Positions 38,726-44,962 of a stretch of 45,118 bases of DNA are shown piece by piece. The notes under the pieces are model-generated. The model worked only from the letters and a program-made list of their open reading frames with translations, made no database searches and was not told the DNA's origin. The number at the start of each line of letters is the position of its first letter. The first letter of the stretch is position 1. Origin of the DNA: Mesobacillus subterraneus (GTDB lineage: Bacteria; Bacillota; Bacilli; Bacillales; Cytobacillaceae); assembly GCF_000934845.1 (NCBI RefSeq), contig NZ_JXIQ01000026.1, forward strand, positions 1-45,118, read 5' to 3'. The position numbers and the translations under genes were made by a program.

Positions 38726-39038
38726 TTAAACGTATTTATCAAGAATAACGGTTATTTTTTCTTTCAAAAGTGGTATTTCTTTTTCAACCACGTTCCATAC
38801 TATTCCATTATCTACTCCAAAATAATCGTGAATTAAAACATCTCTTAATCCCGCCATCTCACGCCAAGGTACATGGGGATTTTGCTTTCGAAAATCTATT
38901 GTAACACGTTTAGTTACGAATGACCGCATCTTGAATTAGTTTAGAACTAAAAAAGTCACTTTCACCATTTGAAATATATAATTCAATATTTTCTATGCAC
39001 TCCAAAATATGAAGCAAATAGATTTTGTCCTTTTTCAT
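38726..39038 (-). pseudogene. hepT: Frameshifted HepT (HEPN toxin, DUF86)
   Basis: From ATG 39038 the frame encodes the normal HepT start (MKKDKIYLLHILECIENIEL) and runs to DAVIRN, then meets TAA at 38910-38912. The rest of the protein (TKRVTIDFRKQNPHVPWREMAG, then RDVLIHDYFGVD with the catalytic R-x4-H) continues in another frame to 38726. The conserved segment between (normally N-F-E-I-I-G-E-A) is missing. A 23-base deletion between AACT repeats would produce exactly this. The RNase/toxin is therefore probably lost. Overlaps the mntA stop by ATGA. Confidence 0.85.
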
Positions 39039-39322
39039 AATTGAATAGCTCCGTTTACCACATCTTCTTTCATACCCCAATGAATCGCGTTCTCTGTTAC
39101 AACATCGACTTTAATACCGAGTATGTCTTCAATCTCTTGTTTAAATCGAACCAGATCAAACAAACTTCTGTCTTTCTCAAATTCTACAAGTAAATCAAGG
39201 TCACTTGTAGGTCCATCTTCATGCCTTGCAACTGAACCAAAAACCCGTACATTATAGATGCCATGATCATCTGCAATTTTTAATATTAAATCACGCTTTT
39301 CTTGAAGAACATCATATAACAT
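39035..39322 (-). CDS. mntA: MntA-type nucleotidyltransferase antitoxin
   Basis: A 95-residue minimal nucleotidyltransferase: VFGSVARHEDGPTSDLDLLVEF (core GSVAR-x8-DLD, about 30-44) with the two catalytic Asp, and the downstream Asp in KVDVV (about 78). In characterised pairs MntA adds AMP to HepT and neutralises it. The gene is intact while its toxin partner is frameshifted. Confidence 0.9.
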   Translation of the reverse strand: MLYDVLQEKRDLILKIADDHGIYNVRVFGSVARHEDGPTSDLDLLVEFEKDRSLFDLVRFKQEIEDILGIKVDVVTENAIHWGMKEDVVNGAIQL

Positions 39323-40539: not shown

Positions 40540-42771
40540 TTAACTATGGCAGCTCTCACATTCAGCAAACTCACTGCTGGAGGTGGAGCGGACGTAATAC
40601 GTCGTTTTCAGTCCGGACTTCCATGCATCCATATGCAGCTCCAGCAGCGCTTTTGCCTTAATGTTGTTTGTGACGTAGAAATTAAACGAAATCCCCTGAT
40701 CGATATGGCGCTGTCGGCGGGCATTCTGTCTGATGCTCCAATGCTGATCCACGTTATAGGCTGTCTTATAGAACCACATCGTTTCGGCCGATAAATCTGG
40801 TGCGGTCACAGGGATTTTATAATCCTTCTTCTCCTCGGAGTATTCCAACCTAAAAACCGGATCAATACTTGCTGTCGAACCAGCTAGAATCGAAGTGGAA
40901 GAATTTGGAGCTACCGCCATCAGATACCCATTTCTGATTCCATTCTGCTTTACTTCCTCAGCCAGGTTGTCCCAGCTGTCACCAATGTATTGTCTTTTTT
41001 TGAAAAATTGTCCTGTTGACCAGTCCGATCCTGCGAAATAAGGGTATGCCCCTTTTTCTTTTGCCAGCTCGAGACTTGCGCTGATAGTGAAAAAGGCAAT
41101 CGATTCATAGAGACGATCACAATACTCGACCGCTTCTTCACTTTCCCATTTAATCCCTTGAAGAGCCAGTAAATGATGCCACCCAAATGTACCCAGTCCG
41201 ATTCCCCTGTAGTTCTGGTTGGTTATTTGCGCCTGGAGGACAGGAATTTCATTGATATTGATAACATTATCGAGCATCCTAACTTGGATGTTGATCACTC
41301 TCTCAAGTACATCATCTATCACGCTCTTTGCTAAAGAAATCGAGGATAAGTTGCAGACAACAAAGTCCCCCGGTTTTTTATAGATTACTATCTTTCCGTC
41401 CTGCACCGTTTCCTCTTCAAGGAGGGTAGGGCTCATATTCTGGGTGATTTCTGTGCAGAGATTGCTGCAGTAAATCATCCCTTTATGGTGATTTGCATTG
41501 AGCCTGTTGACCTGATCCCTGTAAAACATGTAGGGGGTGCCGGTTTCGAGCTGAGAAATCATGATGGATTTAAAGATTTCAATAGCAGGAACCACTTCGT
41601 GTGACAAACCAGATTGATGGACGCAAGCCCAATATTTTTCGCGAAAGGAGCCAGCCCCCTTCTCCTCATCAAAATGATCTTCAAGGGAAAATCCCATGAC
41701 CCTCCTTACTTCATGAGGATCGAACAGATACCAGTCCCCACGGTTTTCCACCTGTTCCATAAATAAATCCGGGATACATATGCCTGAAAATAAATCATGC
41801 GTCCGCTGGCGCTCGTCTCCATTGTTCAGCTTGGCATCAAGGAATGAGAAGATGTCTTTATGCCACACATCGAGATAAACAGCAATCGCCCCTTGACGCT
41901 GTCCTAATTGATCAACCGAAACAGCGGTGTTATTCAGTTGTTTCATCCACGGAATGACTCCCGAACTGACCCCTTTAAAACCTTTGATATCACTGCCGCG
42001 ACTTCTGATCTTTCCAAGGTAAACGCCAATTCCGCCCCCGTTTTTGCTTAAGGTGGAAATATCCGTATTCGAGTCGTAAATACTTCTTAAATCATCAGCA
42101 ACTGTATCAATAAAGCAGCTCGATAACTGGCCATAGCTTTTGCCAGCGTTCGATAATGTCGGTGTGGCGACTGTCATATATAAATTGGAAAGCGCCCAGT
42201 AAGCCTCTTCCACTAATGGAATCCGCTTTTCCTTTGGTTCTTCAGCTAACAATGTCATCGCGATCATCATGAATCGCTCCTGTGGAAGTTCGGCAATATC
42301 ACCATTTTGTGTGCGTGCCAGATACCTTTCCGCCAAGGTTAAAAGCCCTATATAGGTAAACAGCTTGTCTCTCTCTGGATCGATGACTTTTTCCAGGTGA
42401 TCTATTTCGTCACGTGAGTAGGATGCTAACACTCGATTGTCATAGATCCCAATCTCTATTAAGCTATTGATCAACTCATAGAATGAACCGTAACCAGATT
42501 CTATTCTTCCATTTCGGAAATGGGCACTAAGTCTGTATAATTTTTTTAAATAAAACCCCGCAGCTACATATGTCCATTCAGGCTCGTCCCGGTTAATTCG
42601 TTCCACTGCGGTCAAAATCAACATGTTCTCGATCTGATCATCGGTCATATCCTTCACTTCAAGGGCTTGGTCCACCTTTGCTTTGAAAAATGGAAAGTCC
42701 AATTTAGGGAACGCAAACTCTATTTCTGCGATCAGTTTTGCTGCATTTTCATCCTTTGCTTGGATACTCAT
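40540..42771 (-). CDS. nrdE: Class I ribonucleotide reductase, alpha subunit
   Basis: A 743-residue catalytic subunit reducing ribonucleoside diphosphates. Active-site elements: Cys in LSSCFID (about 219), NLCTEI (thiyl-radical Cys and Glu, about 435-440), CNLSSISL (second redox Cys, about 474) and the C-terminal CESCHS pair. The N terminus lacks a recognisable ATP-cone, so dATP activity control may be absent. Start ATG 42771 behind GGAGGGATAATCA, inside the end of the thioesterase gene (23-base overlap). Expression is probably set by the NrdR box and cobalamin riboswitch upstream. Confidence 0.93.
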   Translation of the reverse strand: MSIQAKDENAAKLIAEIEFAFPKLDFPFFKAKVDQALEVKDMTDDQIENMLILTAVERINRDEPEWTYVAAGFYLKKLYRLSAHFRNGRIESGYGSFYELINSLIEIGIYDNRVLASYSRDEIDHLEKVIDPERDKLFTYIGLLTLAERYLARTQNGDIAELPQERFMMIAMTLLAEEPKEKRIPLVEEAYWALSNLYMTVATPTLSNAGKSYGQLSSCFIDTVADDLRSIYDSNTDISTLSKNGGGIGVYLGKIRSRGSDIKGFKGVSSGVIPWMKQLNNTAVSVDQLGQRQGAIAVYLDVWHKDIFSFLDAKLNNGDERQRTHDLFSGICIPDLFMEQVENRGDWYLFDPHEVRRVMGFSLEDHFDEEKGAGSFREKYWACVHQSGLSHEVVPAIEIFKSIMISQLETGTPYMFYRDQVNRLNANHHKGMIYCSNLCTEITQNMSPTLLEEETVQDGKIVIYKKPGDFVVCNLSSISLAKSVIDDVLERVINIQVRMLDNVININEIPVLQAQITNQNYRGIGLGTFGWHHLLALQGIKWESEEAVEYCDRLYESIAFFTISASLELAKEKGAYPYFAGSDWSTGQFFKKRQYIGDSWDNLAEEVKQNGIRNGYLMAVAPNSSTSILAGSTASIDPVFRLEYSEEKKDYKIPVTAPDLSAETMWFYKTAYNVDQHWSIRQNARRQRHIDQGISFNFYVTNNIKAKALLELHMDAWKSGLKTTYYVRSTSSSEFAECESCHS

Positions 42772-43258
42772 TGATTATCCCTCCAACTTGATTGCTTTTT
42801 CTTGCTTCCAGCCTGCGCTTCCTTCGCATATCGGCAGTATTGAACATCTCCCGTTCTTGATCGTTTTCTGGAATGACCCTTGCGACTGGCTCCGGTTTAC
42901 CATTCTCATCCTTCGCGATCATCGTAAGAATTGACGTGGTCGTCAGCGTTCTCCTGCTTGTTTTCAAGTTTTCACTTTCCACTTTCACGAATACTTCCAT
43001 TGATGTTCTGCCTGTTGAAATGACCACCGCTTCGAGTGTTAAAATATCGCCTACTACCGCGGCAGACAGAAAGTTAACCGAGTCAATCGAGGCGGTGACA
43101 ACTGCCCTCCTGCTGTGTTTCATCGCGGCAATTGCGGCGATTTCATCAATATAGGACAGCACGGTTCCGCCAAAAATCGTGCCAAGATGGTTTGTATCTG
43201 GCGGCAGGACGAGCCTGTTCTGAAATGTCCTTGACACATTTGCTGATAATCCTTCCAT
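42749..43258 (-). CDS. Acyl-CoA thioesterase (hotdog, YkhA/BACH type)
   Basis: A 169-residue hotdog-fold thioesterase. Typical motif: DTNHLGTIFGGTVLSYIDEIAAIAA (core NHLGTIFGG...DEIAAIAA, about 22-45), where the Asn and Asp/Glu form the active site. Family hydrolyses medium- to long-chain acyl-CoA. It is the first gene behind the riboswitch and its end overlaps the nrdE start, an unexpected partner for a ribonucleotide reductase. ATG is preceded by AGGAGGTCGGAC. Confidence 0.88.
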   Translation of the reverse strand: MEGLSANVSRTFQNRLVLPPDTNHLGTIFGGTVLSYIDEIAAIAAMKHSRRAVVTASIDSVNFLSAAVVGDILTLEAVVISTGRTSMEVFVKVESENLKTSRRTLTTTSILTMIAKDENGKPEPVARVIPENDQEREMFNTADMRRKRRLEARKSNQVGGIINEYPSKG

Positions 43259-43302
43259 GTCCGACCTCCTGTGTGTAAAAAATGCTCCCTGAAAAATAAG
43301 AA

Positions 43303-43326
43303 AAACCCATCTCGAAAGATGGGTTT
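43303..43326 (-). terminator. Intrinsic terminator of the cobalamin riboswitch
   Basis: Perfect 10-bp stem AAACCCATCT / AGATGGGTTT with a four-base loop, followed by TTCTTATTTTTC on the minus strand. It lies between aptamer and thioesterase start, the place expected for a riboswitch expression platform. Confidence 0.8.
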
Positions 43327-43433
43327 AAGTAACGTTGATATCCTAACAGCTCATATAAAGCACCAAAAACAGCATGAGACTATCAATTTATCCCCGTATA
43401 CCTTCCCTATTCCCGAAGAAGATAACACGAATA

Positions 43434-43592
43434 AATATGGCAGGTCTCCTGACTTGTGCATCACCCTATTTTAAGGCCTTCCCATCTATTTGTTAGACAG
43501 TGGTTCATCCTTATTTCGTCAGCACTTACAGTTGCGGGAACAGTTCTGGATTCACACCAGATTCCCTATTAAGTCTTATTCAGACACCATAC
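43434..43592 (-). ncRNA. Adenosylcobalamin riboswitch (B12 box)
   Basis: On the minus strand the conserved blocks of the cobalamin riboswitch appear in order: TTAATAGGGAA, GGTGTGAATCC, ACTGTTCCCGCAACTGTAA, CCACTG, GGGAAGG and the B12 box core GTCAGGAGACCTGCC (all read by eye). A terminator follows at 43303-43326. It controls thioesterase-nrdE-nrdF. High B12 should switch these genes off. Confidence 0.93.
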
Positions 43593-43602
43593 TTATCGGC
43601 AA

Positions 43603-43650
43603 TTTCAATATTTAGATGTAAAAATCTCTTACTAACACAATATATTGTGT
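43603..43650. promoter_or_regulatory. NrdR box (one perfect, one degenerate partner)
   Basis: ACACAATATATTGTGT (43635-43650), inside the 20-base perfect palindrome 43633-43652, fits the NrdR consensus as I remember it. A weaker match, sharing CAATAT, starts 32 bases away at 43603, the spacing typical of paired NrdR boxes. They lie just upstream of the riboswitch, in the promoter zone. Confidence 0.8.
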
Positions 43651-43723
43651 TATATGAATTGATAGTAAATCATCTTACCTGCTTTTTCAACTATTTTTCA
43701 CTATTCATTTGAATATTTGACAG

Positions 43724-44962
43724 TTAAGATGTCTTCTTGATGTTGATTACTTTTCCTTCTTGGCGCCATTTTCTGAATTCTACAGCAGCCGTAAAAAGAA
43801 CGTCTGTCGATGAGTTAAGTGCCGTTTCAACAGAGTCTTGCACAACGCCAATGATAAAACCTACAGCAACCACTTGCATCGCGACATCATTTGGGATGCC
43901 AAATAAGCTGGCTGCGAGAGGGATCAGCAACAATGAGCCGCCAGCAACACCAGAAGCACCGGCTGCACTGATGGCAGCCATCACACTAAGAAGGATGGCG
44001 GTTGGAATATCCACTTGAATGCCAAGTGTATGGACAGCAGCCAGTGTCATCACGGAAATCGTTACAGCTGCTCCTGCCATATTAATCGTTGCGCCTAACG
44101 GAATCGAAACAGAGTAGGAGTCTTTATCCAGCCCTAATTCTTCACAAATTTTAATATTCACAGGGATATTAGAAGCTGAACTTCTTGTAAAGAAAGCGGT
44201 AATCCCGCTTTCTTTTAAGCATTTAAACACAAGCGGATATGGATTTTGCCTTATCATCGTGTACACGATAAGGGGATTGACGATAAGCGCAACGACCAGC
44301 ATACAGCCTATTAAAACCGCAAGCAATTTTCCATAACCAAGCAAGGAACTAAGCCCGTTTGTCGTAATGGATTCAAATACTAGACCCATAATGCCAAGCG
44401 GAGCAAATTTTATAACCCAGGCGACAATCTTGGACATAGCATCGGCTAAATTGCCAATCACCACTTTTGTTGAATCTGCTGCACTTCTCAGAGCAAAACC
44501 GATCAGGACTGCCCAGGCTAAAATTCCGATATAATTAGCATTTATAAGAGCGTTAACCGGATTGTCAACAATATTGAGCAATAATGTTCTAAGAACCTCT
44601 ACCACACTTCCTGGAGGCGTCATTCCTTCGGTGCCAGCTGTCAATTTCAAGCTTACCGGAAACAGGAAGCTAGCAATAACGGCGATAAGTCCCGCCAAGA
44701 ACGTTCCTAAAAAATAGAGGAAAATAATCATTTTCATGTTTGTTTTCTGTCCGCGTTTATGCTGGGCAATCGCCGACATAACCAGGAACAATACCAAAAT
44801 GGGAGCAACTGCTTTCAGAGCCCCTACAAATAATGATCCAAAAATGGCAACAGGCTTTGCAACTCCAGGGATTGCAAGTGCCAGGATCACCCCGATTACC
44901 AGACCAGCAATGATCTGCTTCACCAGGCTTACTCGGTTCAATTTCTTTAGTAAATTGTTCAT
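43724..44962 (-). CDS. sstT: Serine/threonine:Na+ symporter SstT
   Basis: A 412-residue dicarboxylate/amino acid:cation symporter of the SstT group. About eight transmembrane helices and two re-entrant loops: [19 protein letters not shown] (core [13 protein letters not shown]) and [13 protein letters not shown] (about 292-304). E. coli SstT is of nearly the same length. ATG 44962 follows GGGAGAGGACG. It is separated from the nrd promoter region by only about 70 bases but is not part of that operon. Confidence 0.92.

Follow-up and report, generated by a model that had tools for sequence, protein, structure and literature searches.

The stretch of DNA analysed here (the window) comprises 45,118 nucleotides (nt) of Mesobacillus subterraneus, positions 1 to 45,118 of contig NZ_JXIQ01000026.1, and carries on its reverse strand an operon encoding a thioesterase and both subunits of a class I ribonucleotide reductase, preceded by a cobalamin (B12) riboswitch. 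The features of this locus are, in the direction of transcription:

43662-43690, reverse strand: candidate sigma-70-type promoter, TTGAAA-17-TACTAT, a weak one (2 found against 2.5 expected by chance)
43635-43650, no strand assigned: NrdR-box-like palindrome ACACAATATATTGTGT, found by genome scan just upstream of the aptamer
43603-43618, no strand assigned: possible second NrdR box, seen by eye, 32 bp from the first, with one mismatch in the central 10 bases and seven in the whole 16-mer
43606-43422, reverse strand: cobalamin riboswitch aptamer RF00174 (Infernal, 125.5 bits, E 2.9e-31, model positions 1-189, the full model)
43326-43303, reverse strand: terminator-like hairpin AAACCCATC-tttc-GAGATGGGTTT followed by a T run, the putative expression platform
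43258-42749, reverse strand: first gene of the operon, hotdog-fold acyl-CoA thioesterase, 169 amino acids (aa), by family and nearest structures
42771-40540, reverse strand: nrdA, class I ribonucleotide reductase alpha subunit, 743 aa, by family models
40521-39484, reverse strand: nrdB, class I ribonucleotide reductase beta subunit, 345 aa, with Tyr125 at the radical site, by family models

The aptamer is the sole Rfam match at gathering score within the window and lies far above the gathering score of RF00174, which is 31.5 bits. The first-pass annotation had read an aptamer and a terminator upstream of thioesterase-nrdE-nrdF. Its aptamer, hairpin and thioesterase were all recovered; the names of the reductase genes had to be changed. 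The alpha subunit scores 1308 bits with NF006665 (cut-off 1057) against 412 with the class Ib model TIGR04170 (cut-off 750), and the beta subunit 407 bits with NF007184 (cut-off 310) against 152 with the class Ib model TIGR04171 (cut-off 355). An identity as NrdE and NrdF was thus rejected, and the family-model scores make the operon thioesterase-nrdA-nrdB. No other gene is evident between the riboswitch and nrdB, where nrdI would be expected for class Ib. The genes are tightly packed, the end of the thioesterase gene overlapping the start of nrdA by 23 nt and nrdA being separated from nrdB by 18 nt.

The beta subunit was also said to have a normal tyrosyl-radical site, and this agrees with what was found. 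The metal, Tyr and Cys motifs of a class I reductase are present, the radical site reading E118-x2-H121-x3-Y125 together with D88, E185, E219 and H222, and Tyr125 is shared in the alignment with 2rcc, the best match to the beta subunit among solved structures. The roles assigned to the metal ligands and to the Tyr are those of their counterparts in E. coli R2. This beta subunit is the only match in the genome to its Pfam family, and no second class I beta was found in a search across the genome. An ATP-cone gave no Pfam match at E up to 0.5 in NrdA or in the three relatives run alongside, so that an overall dATP brake on this enzyme is probably absent.

In the leader the aptamer is followed by the terminator-like hairpin, a ribosome-binding site and the thioesterase start at 43258. 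A scan of 42700-44000 for hairpins with a T tail returned two sites against a mean of 0.8 in shuffled sequences. Of 151 related leaders, 141 have a terminator-like hairpin no more than 230 nt downstream of the B12 box, compared with 38 of 755 shuffled sequences, which makes transcription attenuation the likely mode of action. When the leader is folded alone the terminator pairs with a probability of 0.9998, a value that is uninformative on the co-transcriptional, ligand-dependent state.

We regard it as highly probable that an adenosylcobalamin-type riboswitch attenuates thioesterase-nrdA-nrdB, that the reductases are swapped according to B12, that nrdDG and metE follow the same rule and that NrdR acts as a further layer on top. 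Without B12, the RNA polymerase would read through the leader and the oxygen-dependent, B12-independent class I reductase would be made. With B12, the bound aptamer would favour the terminator at 43326-43303 and the operon would be off, leaving the synthesis of deoxyribonucleotides (dNTPs) to the class II enzyme NrdJ, which requires B12. The same B12 rule would extend to the class III genes nrdDG and to metE in this genome, while NrdR, binding to boxes near the promoters, would add nucleotide sensing as a further level of control on all three reductase operons. We infer the direction of the response, and with it the swap according to B12 supply, from what is reported for such leaders: the metE switch of Priestia megaterium was tested in Bacillus subtilis (PMC9600662, available part), and in Propionibacterium acnes shut-off by B12 was proposed from RNA sequencing (RNA-seq) (PMC3848588, available part).

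The rest of the genome (an assembly of 3.9 Mb in 208 contigs, 99.99% complete) fits this proposal. There are five matches to RF00174, located before nrdAB, before nrdD-nrdG, encoding the class III reductase (112.9 bits), before metE (110.6 bits) and before two operons for B12 uptake or salvage. One of the latter two encodes a FecCD/BtuC-type permease and an ATPase-CbiZ fusion; the other contains a gene for a periplasmic-binding protein (btuF-like), cbiZ, cbiB and additional genes of cobalamin assembly. In the stretches read, no gene of corrin-ring synthesis follows any of the five riboswitches, although no search aimed at such genes was made. Downstream of the aptamer, the leaders of nrdAB, nrdDG and btuF each have a terminator-like hairpin, and that of metE has a weaker one; the 73 nt beyond the B12 box of the btuC leader yielded none.

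The class II gene predicted by the first-pass annotation to lie elsewhere in the genome is indeed present. It was found on contig C25, where it is split into two pieces matching the B12-dependent reductase model NF005991 at positions 2-481 (949 bits) and 481-858 (739 bits), so that the first exon alone exceeds the cut-off of 854 bits; with TIGR02504 both pieces together reach 566.7 bits (cut-off 399.95). No aptamer was found before nrdJ in the 383 nt that lie upstream of it on its contig, and the gene is presumably without a switch beyond that point also. The metH gene is present, without an aptamer found before it. The genome thus contains the two methionine synthases and reductases of all three classes, with the switch on the B12-independent ones. 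Within this one genome, then, the riboswitch sits on the B12-independent member of an isozyme pair and none was found on the B12-dependent member.

The nrdDG genes have 36.0% G+C against 40.6% in their surroundings, which would fit a recent arrival. A preQ1 riboswitch (L015, 9757-9801) and a c-di-GMP-I riboswitch (L015, 9980-10061) lie near this locus.

To what extent this arrangement is shared was evaluated in two sets of genomes. A scan of species genomes gave 318 relatives of nrdA, of which the best 80 were kept (Mesobacillus, Rossellomorea, Priestia, Geobacillus, Anoxybacillus, Metabacillus and others), and a sample of the family comprised 121 genomes, our own included. Taking a score above 850 bits as nrdA of this type, the gene occurs in 88 of the 121. 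The leaders read were all 73 from outside the genus and six of the 14 from congeners besides the window's own, two of the six (L199 and L202) coming from the same genomes as the named loci L018 and L020. The pair of aptamer motifs is found upstream of nrdA in 80 of the 80 best named relatives, in 71 of the 73 leaders from outside the genus and in 6/6 congeners (77/79 sampled leaders). Controls gave 0/80 downstream, 0/80 in antisense and 0/1600 in shuffled sequences. Infernal agreed with the motifs for all 20 of the leaders given to it from the 73 and all eight given from the 80. In genome G046 the aptamer before nrdA scores 116.1 bits with RF00174; this genome has no match to nrdD and no relative of the thioesterase in the stretch read upstream of nrdA. 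Of the two misses outside the genus, one (G084) concerns a contig end only 174 nt long. In genomes G120 and G110 two aptamers lie back to back upstream of nrdA.

Matches to nrdJ were found, among the matches listed, in 88/88 genomes with this nrdA, presence being judged from the best E-values and resting in G020 and G051 on separate nrdJ pieces. As for class Ib, 17 class Ib-like stretches were read, the class being taken, in genomes other than G031, from frames of around 700 aa with an identity to this NrdA of about 30-35%; one stretch (L187) has 1094 nt, fragment matches may miss the leader, and the alpha gene of G066, G103 and G111 is fragmented or interrupted by stops. With these limits, no aptamer was found in the stretch read from any of the six genomes that have a class Ib-like alpha but, among the matches listed, no nrdJ, and an aptamer occurs in two of the 11 stretches from nrdJ-bearing genomes (G031 and G069). 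In G031 (L232, 982-8190) a single B12 riboswitch precedes genes read, from their sequences and from relative searches, as nrdI-nrdE-nrdF-dut-nrdD-nrdG, with nrdD in two frames.

The class III gene nrdD was found in 27 of the 121 genomes, and in one of the 16 of this genus. It has an aptamer upstream, within the stretch read, in five of the 27, our own included; all five bear nrdJ, and none of the seven nrdD-containing genomes without nrdJ has an aptamer in the stretch read. From these counts and those of the nrdA leaders, the switch on nrdAB is nearly fixed and that on nrdDG is a minority trait.

The gene for NrdR is present, and a scan was made with a consensus that we take to be that of the NrdR box. 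The site ACACAATATATTGTGT is the only palindrome without mismatches in the assembly. The possible second box at 43603-43618 was missed by the scan, which allowed up to three mismatches. Upstream of nrdJ there are two NrdR-like sites with two and three mismatches, 33 bp apart, and a site with three mismatches lies across the 5' boundary of the nrdDG aptamer; NrdR-box-like sites hence precede all three reductase operons. In 71 of the 80 named relatives at least one NrdR-like site is found in up to 3.2 kb upstream, where the genome rate predicts 0.036 per 3.2 kb, and in 18 of the 80 two such boxes are 30-32 bp apart. The coexistence of nrdR and putative boxes at the nrd promoters is consistent with an NrdR regulon.

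Several observations weigh against the proposal that B12 controls the choice of reductase by attenuation, with NrdR as a second layer. The first concerns the antiterminator, for which the search gave a mean complementarity between the 5' arm of the terminator and the leader of 5.06 nt against 4.91 nt when arms were swapped between loci; the sole candidate from the nrdAB leader is AGATGGG, of 7 nt. Also nrdJ begins 383 nt from a contig end. Genome G117 has both nrdA and nrdJ and lacks a sense aptamer before nrdA, the antisense aptamer found there belonging to a divergent gene read as metE. No aptamer was found in nine of the 11 class Ib-like stretches from nrdJ-bearing genomes, nor, in the stretch read, for the nrdD gene of 15 of the 20 genomes that have both nrdD and nrdJ, our own included in the 20. 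Concerning NrdR, there are two sites with two mismatches genome-wide, one before nrdJ and the other on contig C91, and with up to three mismatches the scan gave 44 sites against 52 for the reversed pattern, so that it is by position only that the three-mismatch sites stand out.

The null result for the antiterminator would favour an alternative in which the aptamer is present while the switch is degenerate or acts on translation, the effect of B12 on nrdAB transcription being small. We consider this very improbable. The aptamer is full-length and high-scoring, its recurrence in 80/80 and 71/73 relatives argues for selection, the terminator-like hairpin is common to most related leaders, and the ribosome-binding site of the first gene lies 3' of the terminator and far from the aptamer. 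The remaining alternative, less probable still, makes the thioesterase the main target of the switch, releasing coenzyme A (CoA) from propionyl- and methylmalonyl-CoA when B12 is short and methylmalonyl-CoA mutase stalls, with nrdAB as a passenger: the thioesterase is first in the operon and has no second match in the genome, methylmalonyl-CoA mutase family genes are present, and a relative precedes nrdA in 23/159 stretches of several genus names (13/80 named, 4/73 from the family sample, 6/6 congeners; 21/157 without two duplicated stretches), but none was found in 136/159, which leaves nrdAB as the constant target, and the nearest solved relative is named merely acyl-CoA hydrolase, giving no substrate.

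Attenuation of the whole operon, with nrdAB as the constant target, is consequently the reading that we retain. It could be extended to a broader response to B12 starvation, in which the switch commands, besides the class I and III reductases and MetE, a thioesterase that drains accumulated propionyl- and methylmalonyl-CoA. We hold this extension to be unlikely. CoA relief is seen in mammalian methylmalonic acidaemia, and if B12 starvation called for such relief here, the thioesterase response would be its bacterial counterpart. Of the papers found on thioesterases together with cobalamin riboswitches, none deals with nrdAB, judged by title.

One of the unusual characteristics of this genome is the interruption of nrdJ. 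An insert of 1185 nt (L011:1824-3008) splits the gene at NPCG-EQPLAP, between the codons for Gly and Glu, directly behind what we take to be the radical-cysteine codon. The insert encodes an open reading frame (ORF) of 311 aa without a Pfam match and with weak PHROG matches, endonucleases among them. An intein was ruled out for this genome, since reading on into the insert meets a stop at its fourth codon, where the ORF 384-1835 of L011 ends. The congener G028 has an insert of 249 nt at the same site, without the 311-aa ORF, and three other congeners (G085, G078 and G003) have none there. The lengths at the NPCG site are therefore 1185, 249, 0, 0 and 0 nt in our own and the four congeneric genomes, clean alleles of presence and absence. 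In G078 and G003 a different insert, of 1152 nt, lies elsewhere in nrdJ.

By eye the ends of the insert fit a group I intron, with a U before the 5' splice site, a U.G pair to an internal guide and a G at the 3' end, and the exon sequence CGUGUGGU can be paired with the intron sequence GCCUCACG with one mismatch. The Rfam group I model gave no match to the insert at E up to 1, and for the 249-nt relative a search at E up to 5 gave just a snoRNA match at chance level. The insert may be called group I-like on these features. In the family sample, one unbroken nrdJ match of at least 571 bits was present in 45 of the 114 nrdJ-bearing genomes, among the matches listed, and many other nrdJ matches there break at about positions 160, 284 and 459 of the profile; contig ends may explain some of these breaks. 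With just 45/114 unbroken, nrdJ seems to be a preferred target of introns or inteins in the family. In a review of group I introns in bacteria, the available part mentions flagellin, recA, nrdE and nrdF but not nrdJ (PMC3984707).

About 19 of the 121 genomes have nrdJ matches but lack a match to the class I alpha with an E-value below 1e-30, although alphas in pieces could be missed; for these, aerobic dNTP synthesis may require B12. Within the window, directly downstream of nrdB (38726-39322), there are genes for a nucleotidyltransferase-domain protein and for a 67-aa fragment with a match to the second half of a HepT-like RNase domain. They are possibly a shortened pair of what we presume to be the MntA/HepT type.

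In Streptomyces, nrdABS, which encodes a class Ia reductase, is reportedly under a B12 riboswitch (Borovok et al. 2006), and a class II enzyme is said to be also present. That system differs from ours in being from an actinobacterium and is not known to have a class III arm. The first-pass annotation considered the arrangement one of actinomycetes, found here in a Bacillaceae. The actinobacterial precedent holds, as shown by P. acnes, where a cobalamin riboswitch is annotated on nrdAB and nrdDG and not on the nrdJ operon, NrdR boxes are described and much of the nrdAB transcription appears to stop before the first gene (PMC3848588). Unlike our case, P. acnes is an actinobacterium in which nrdR is co-transcribed with nrdJ, and the available part of that account does not mention a thioesterase.

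This is, however, not the first case in the Bacillaceae, since an (AdoCbl)-nrdAB riboswitch is listed for Bacillus methanolicus MGA3, which also has cobalamin riboswitches before metE and before an operon for B12 transport or biosynthesis; nrdJ is not mentioned in the part of that account available (PMC4342826). Both the combination of riboswitch and nrdAB in the Bacillaceae (PMC4342826) and the logic of switching nrdAB and nrdDG but not nrdJ, with NrdR boxes, in P. acnes (PMC3848588) were accordingly known from those accounts, as far as their available parts go. The metE/metH system of P. megaterium is alike in that a cobalamin riboswitch represses the B12-independent isozyme where the B12-dependent one exists. 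It differs in concerning methionine synthase and in its tandem S-adenosylmethionine (SAM)-cobalamin leader (PMC9600662, available part), whereas in the present genome the surroundings of metE gave no SAM aptamer at the gathering score.

The inserts beside the radical-cysteine codon of nrdJ raise the question of how a class II enzyme on which the cell would rely tolerates them, and the co-regulated thioesterase, an unexplained extra of this operon, raises that of its role. In M. subterraneus, three reductase classes and both methionine synthases would be joined under one vitamin signal. The aptamer motif in 77 of the 79 sampled nrdA leaders indicates that a B12-dependent choice of reductase is the usual state in the family rather than an oddity of the actinomycetes.

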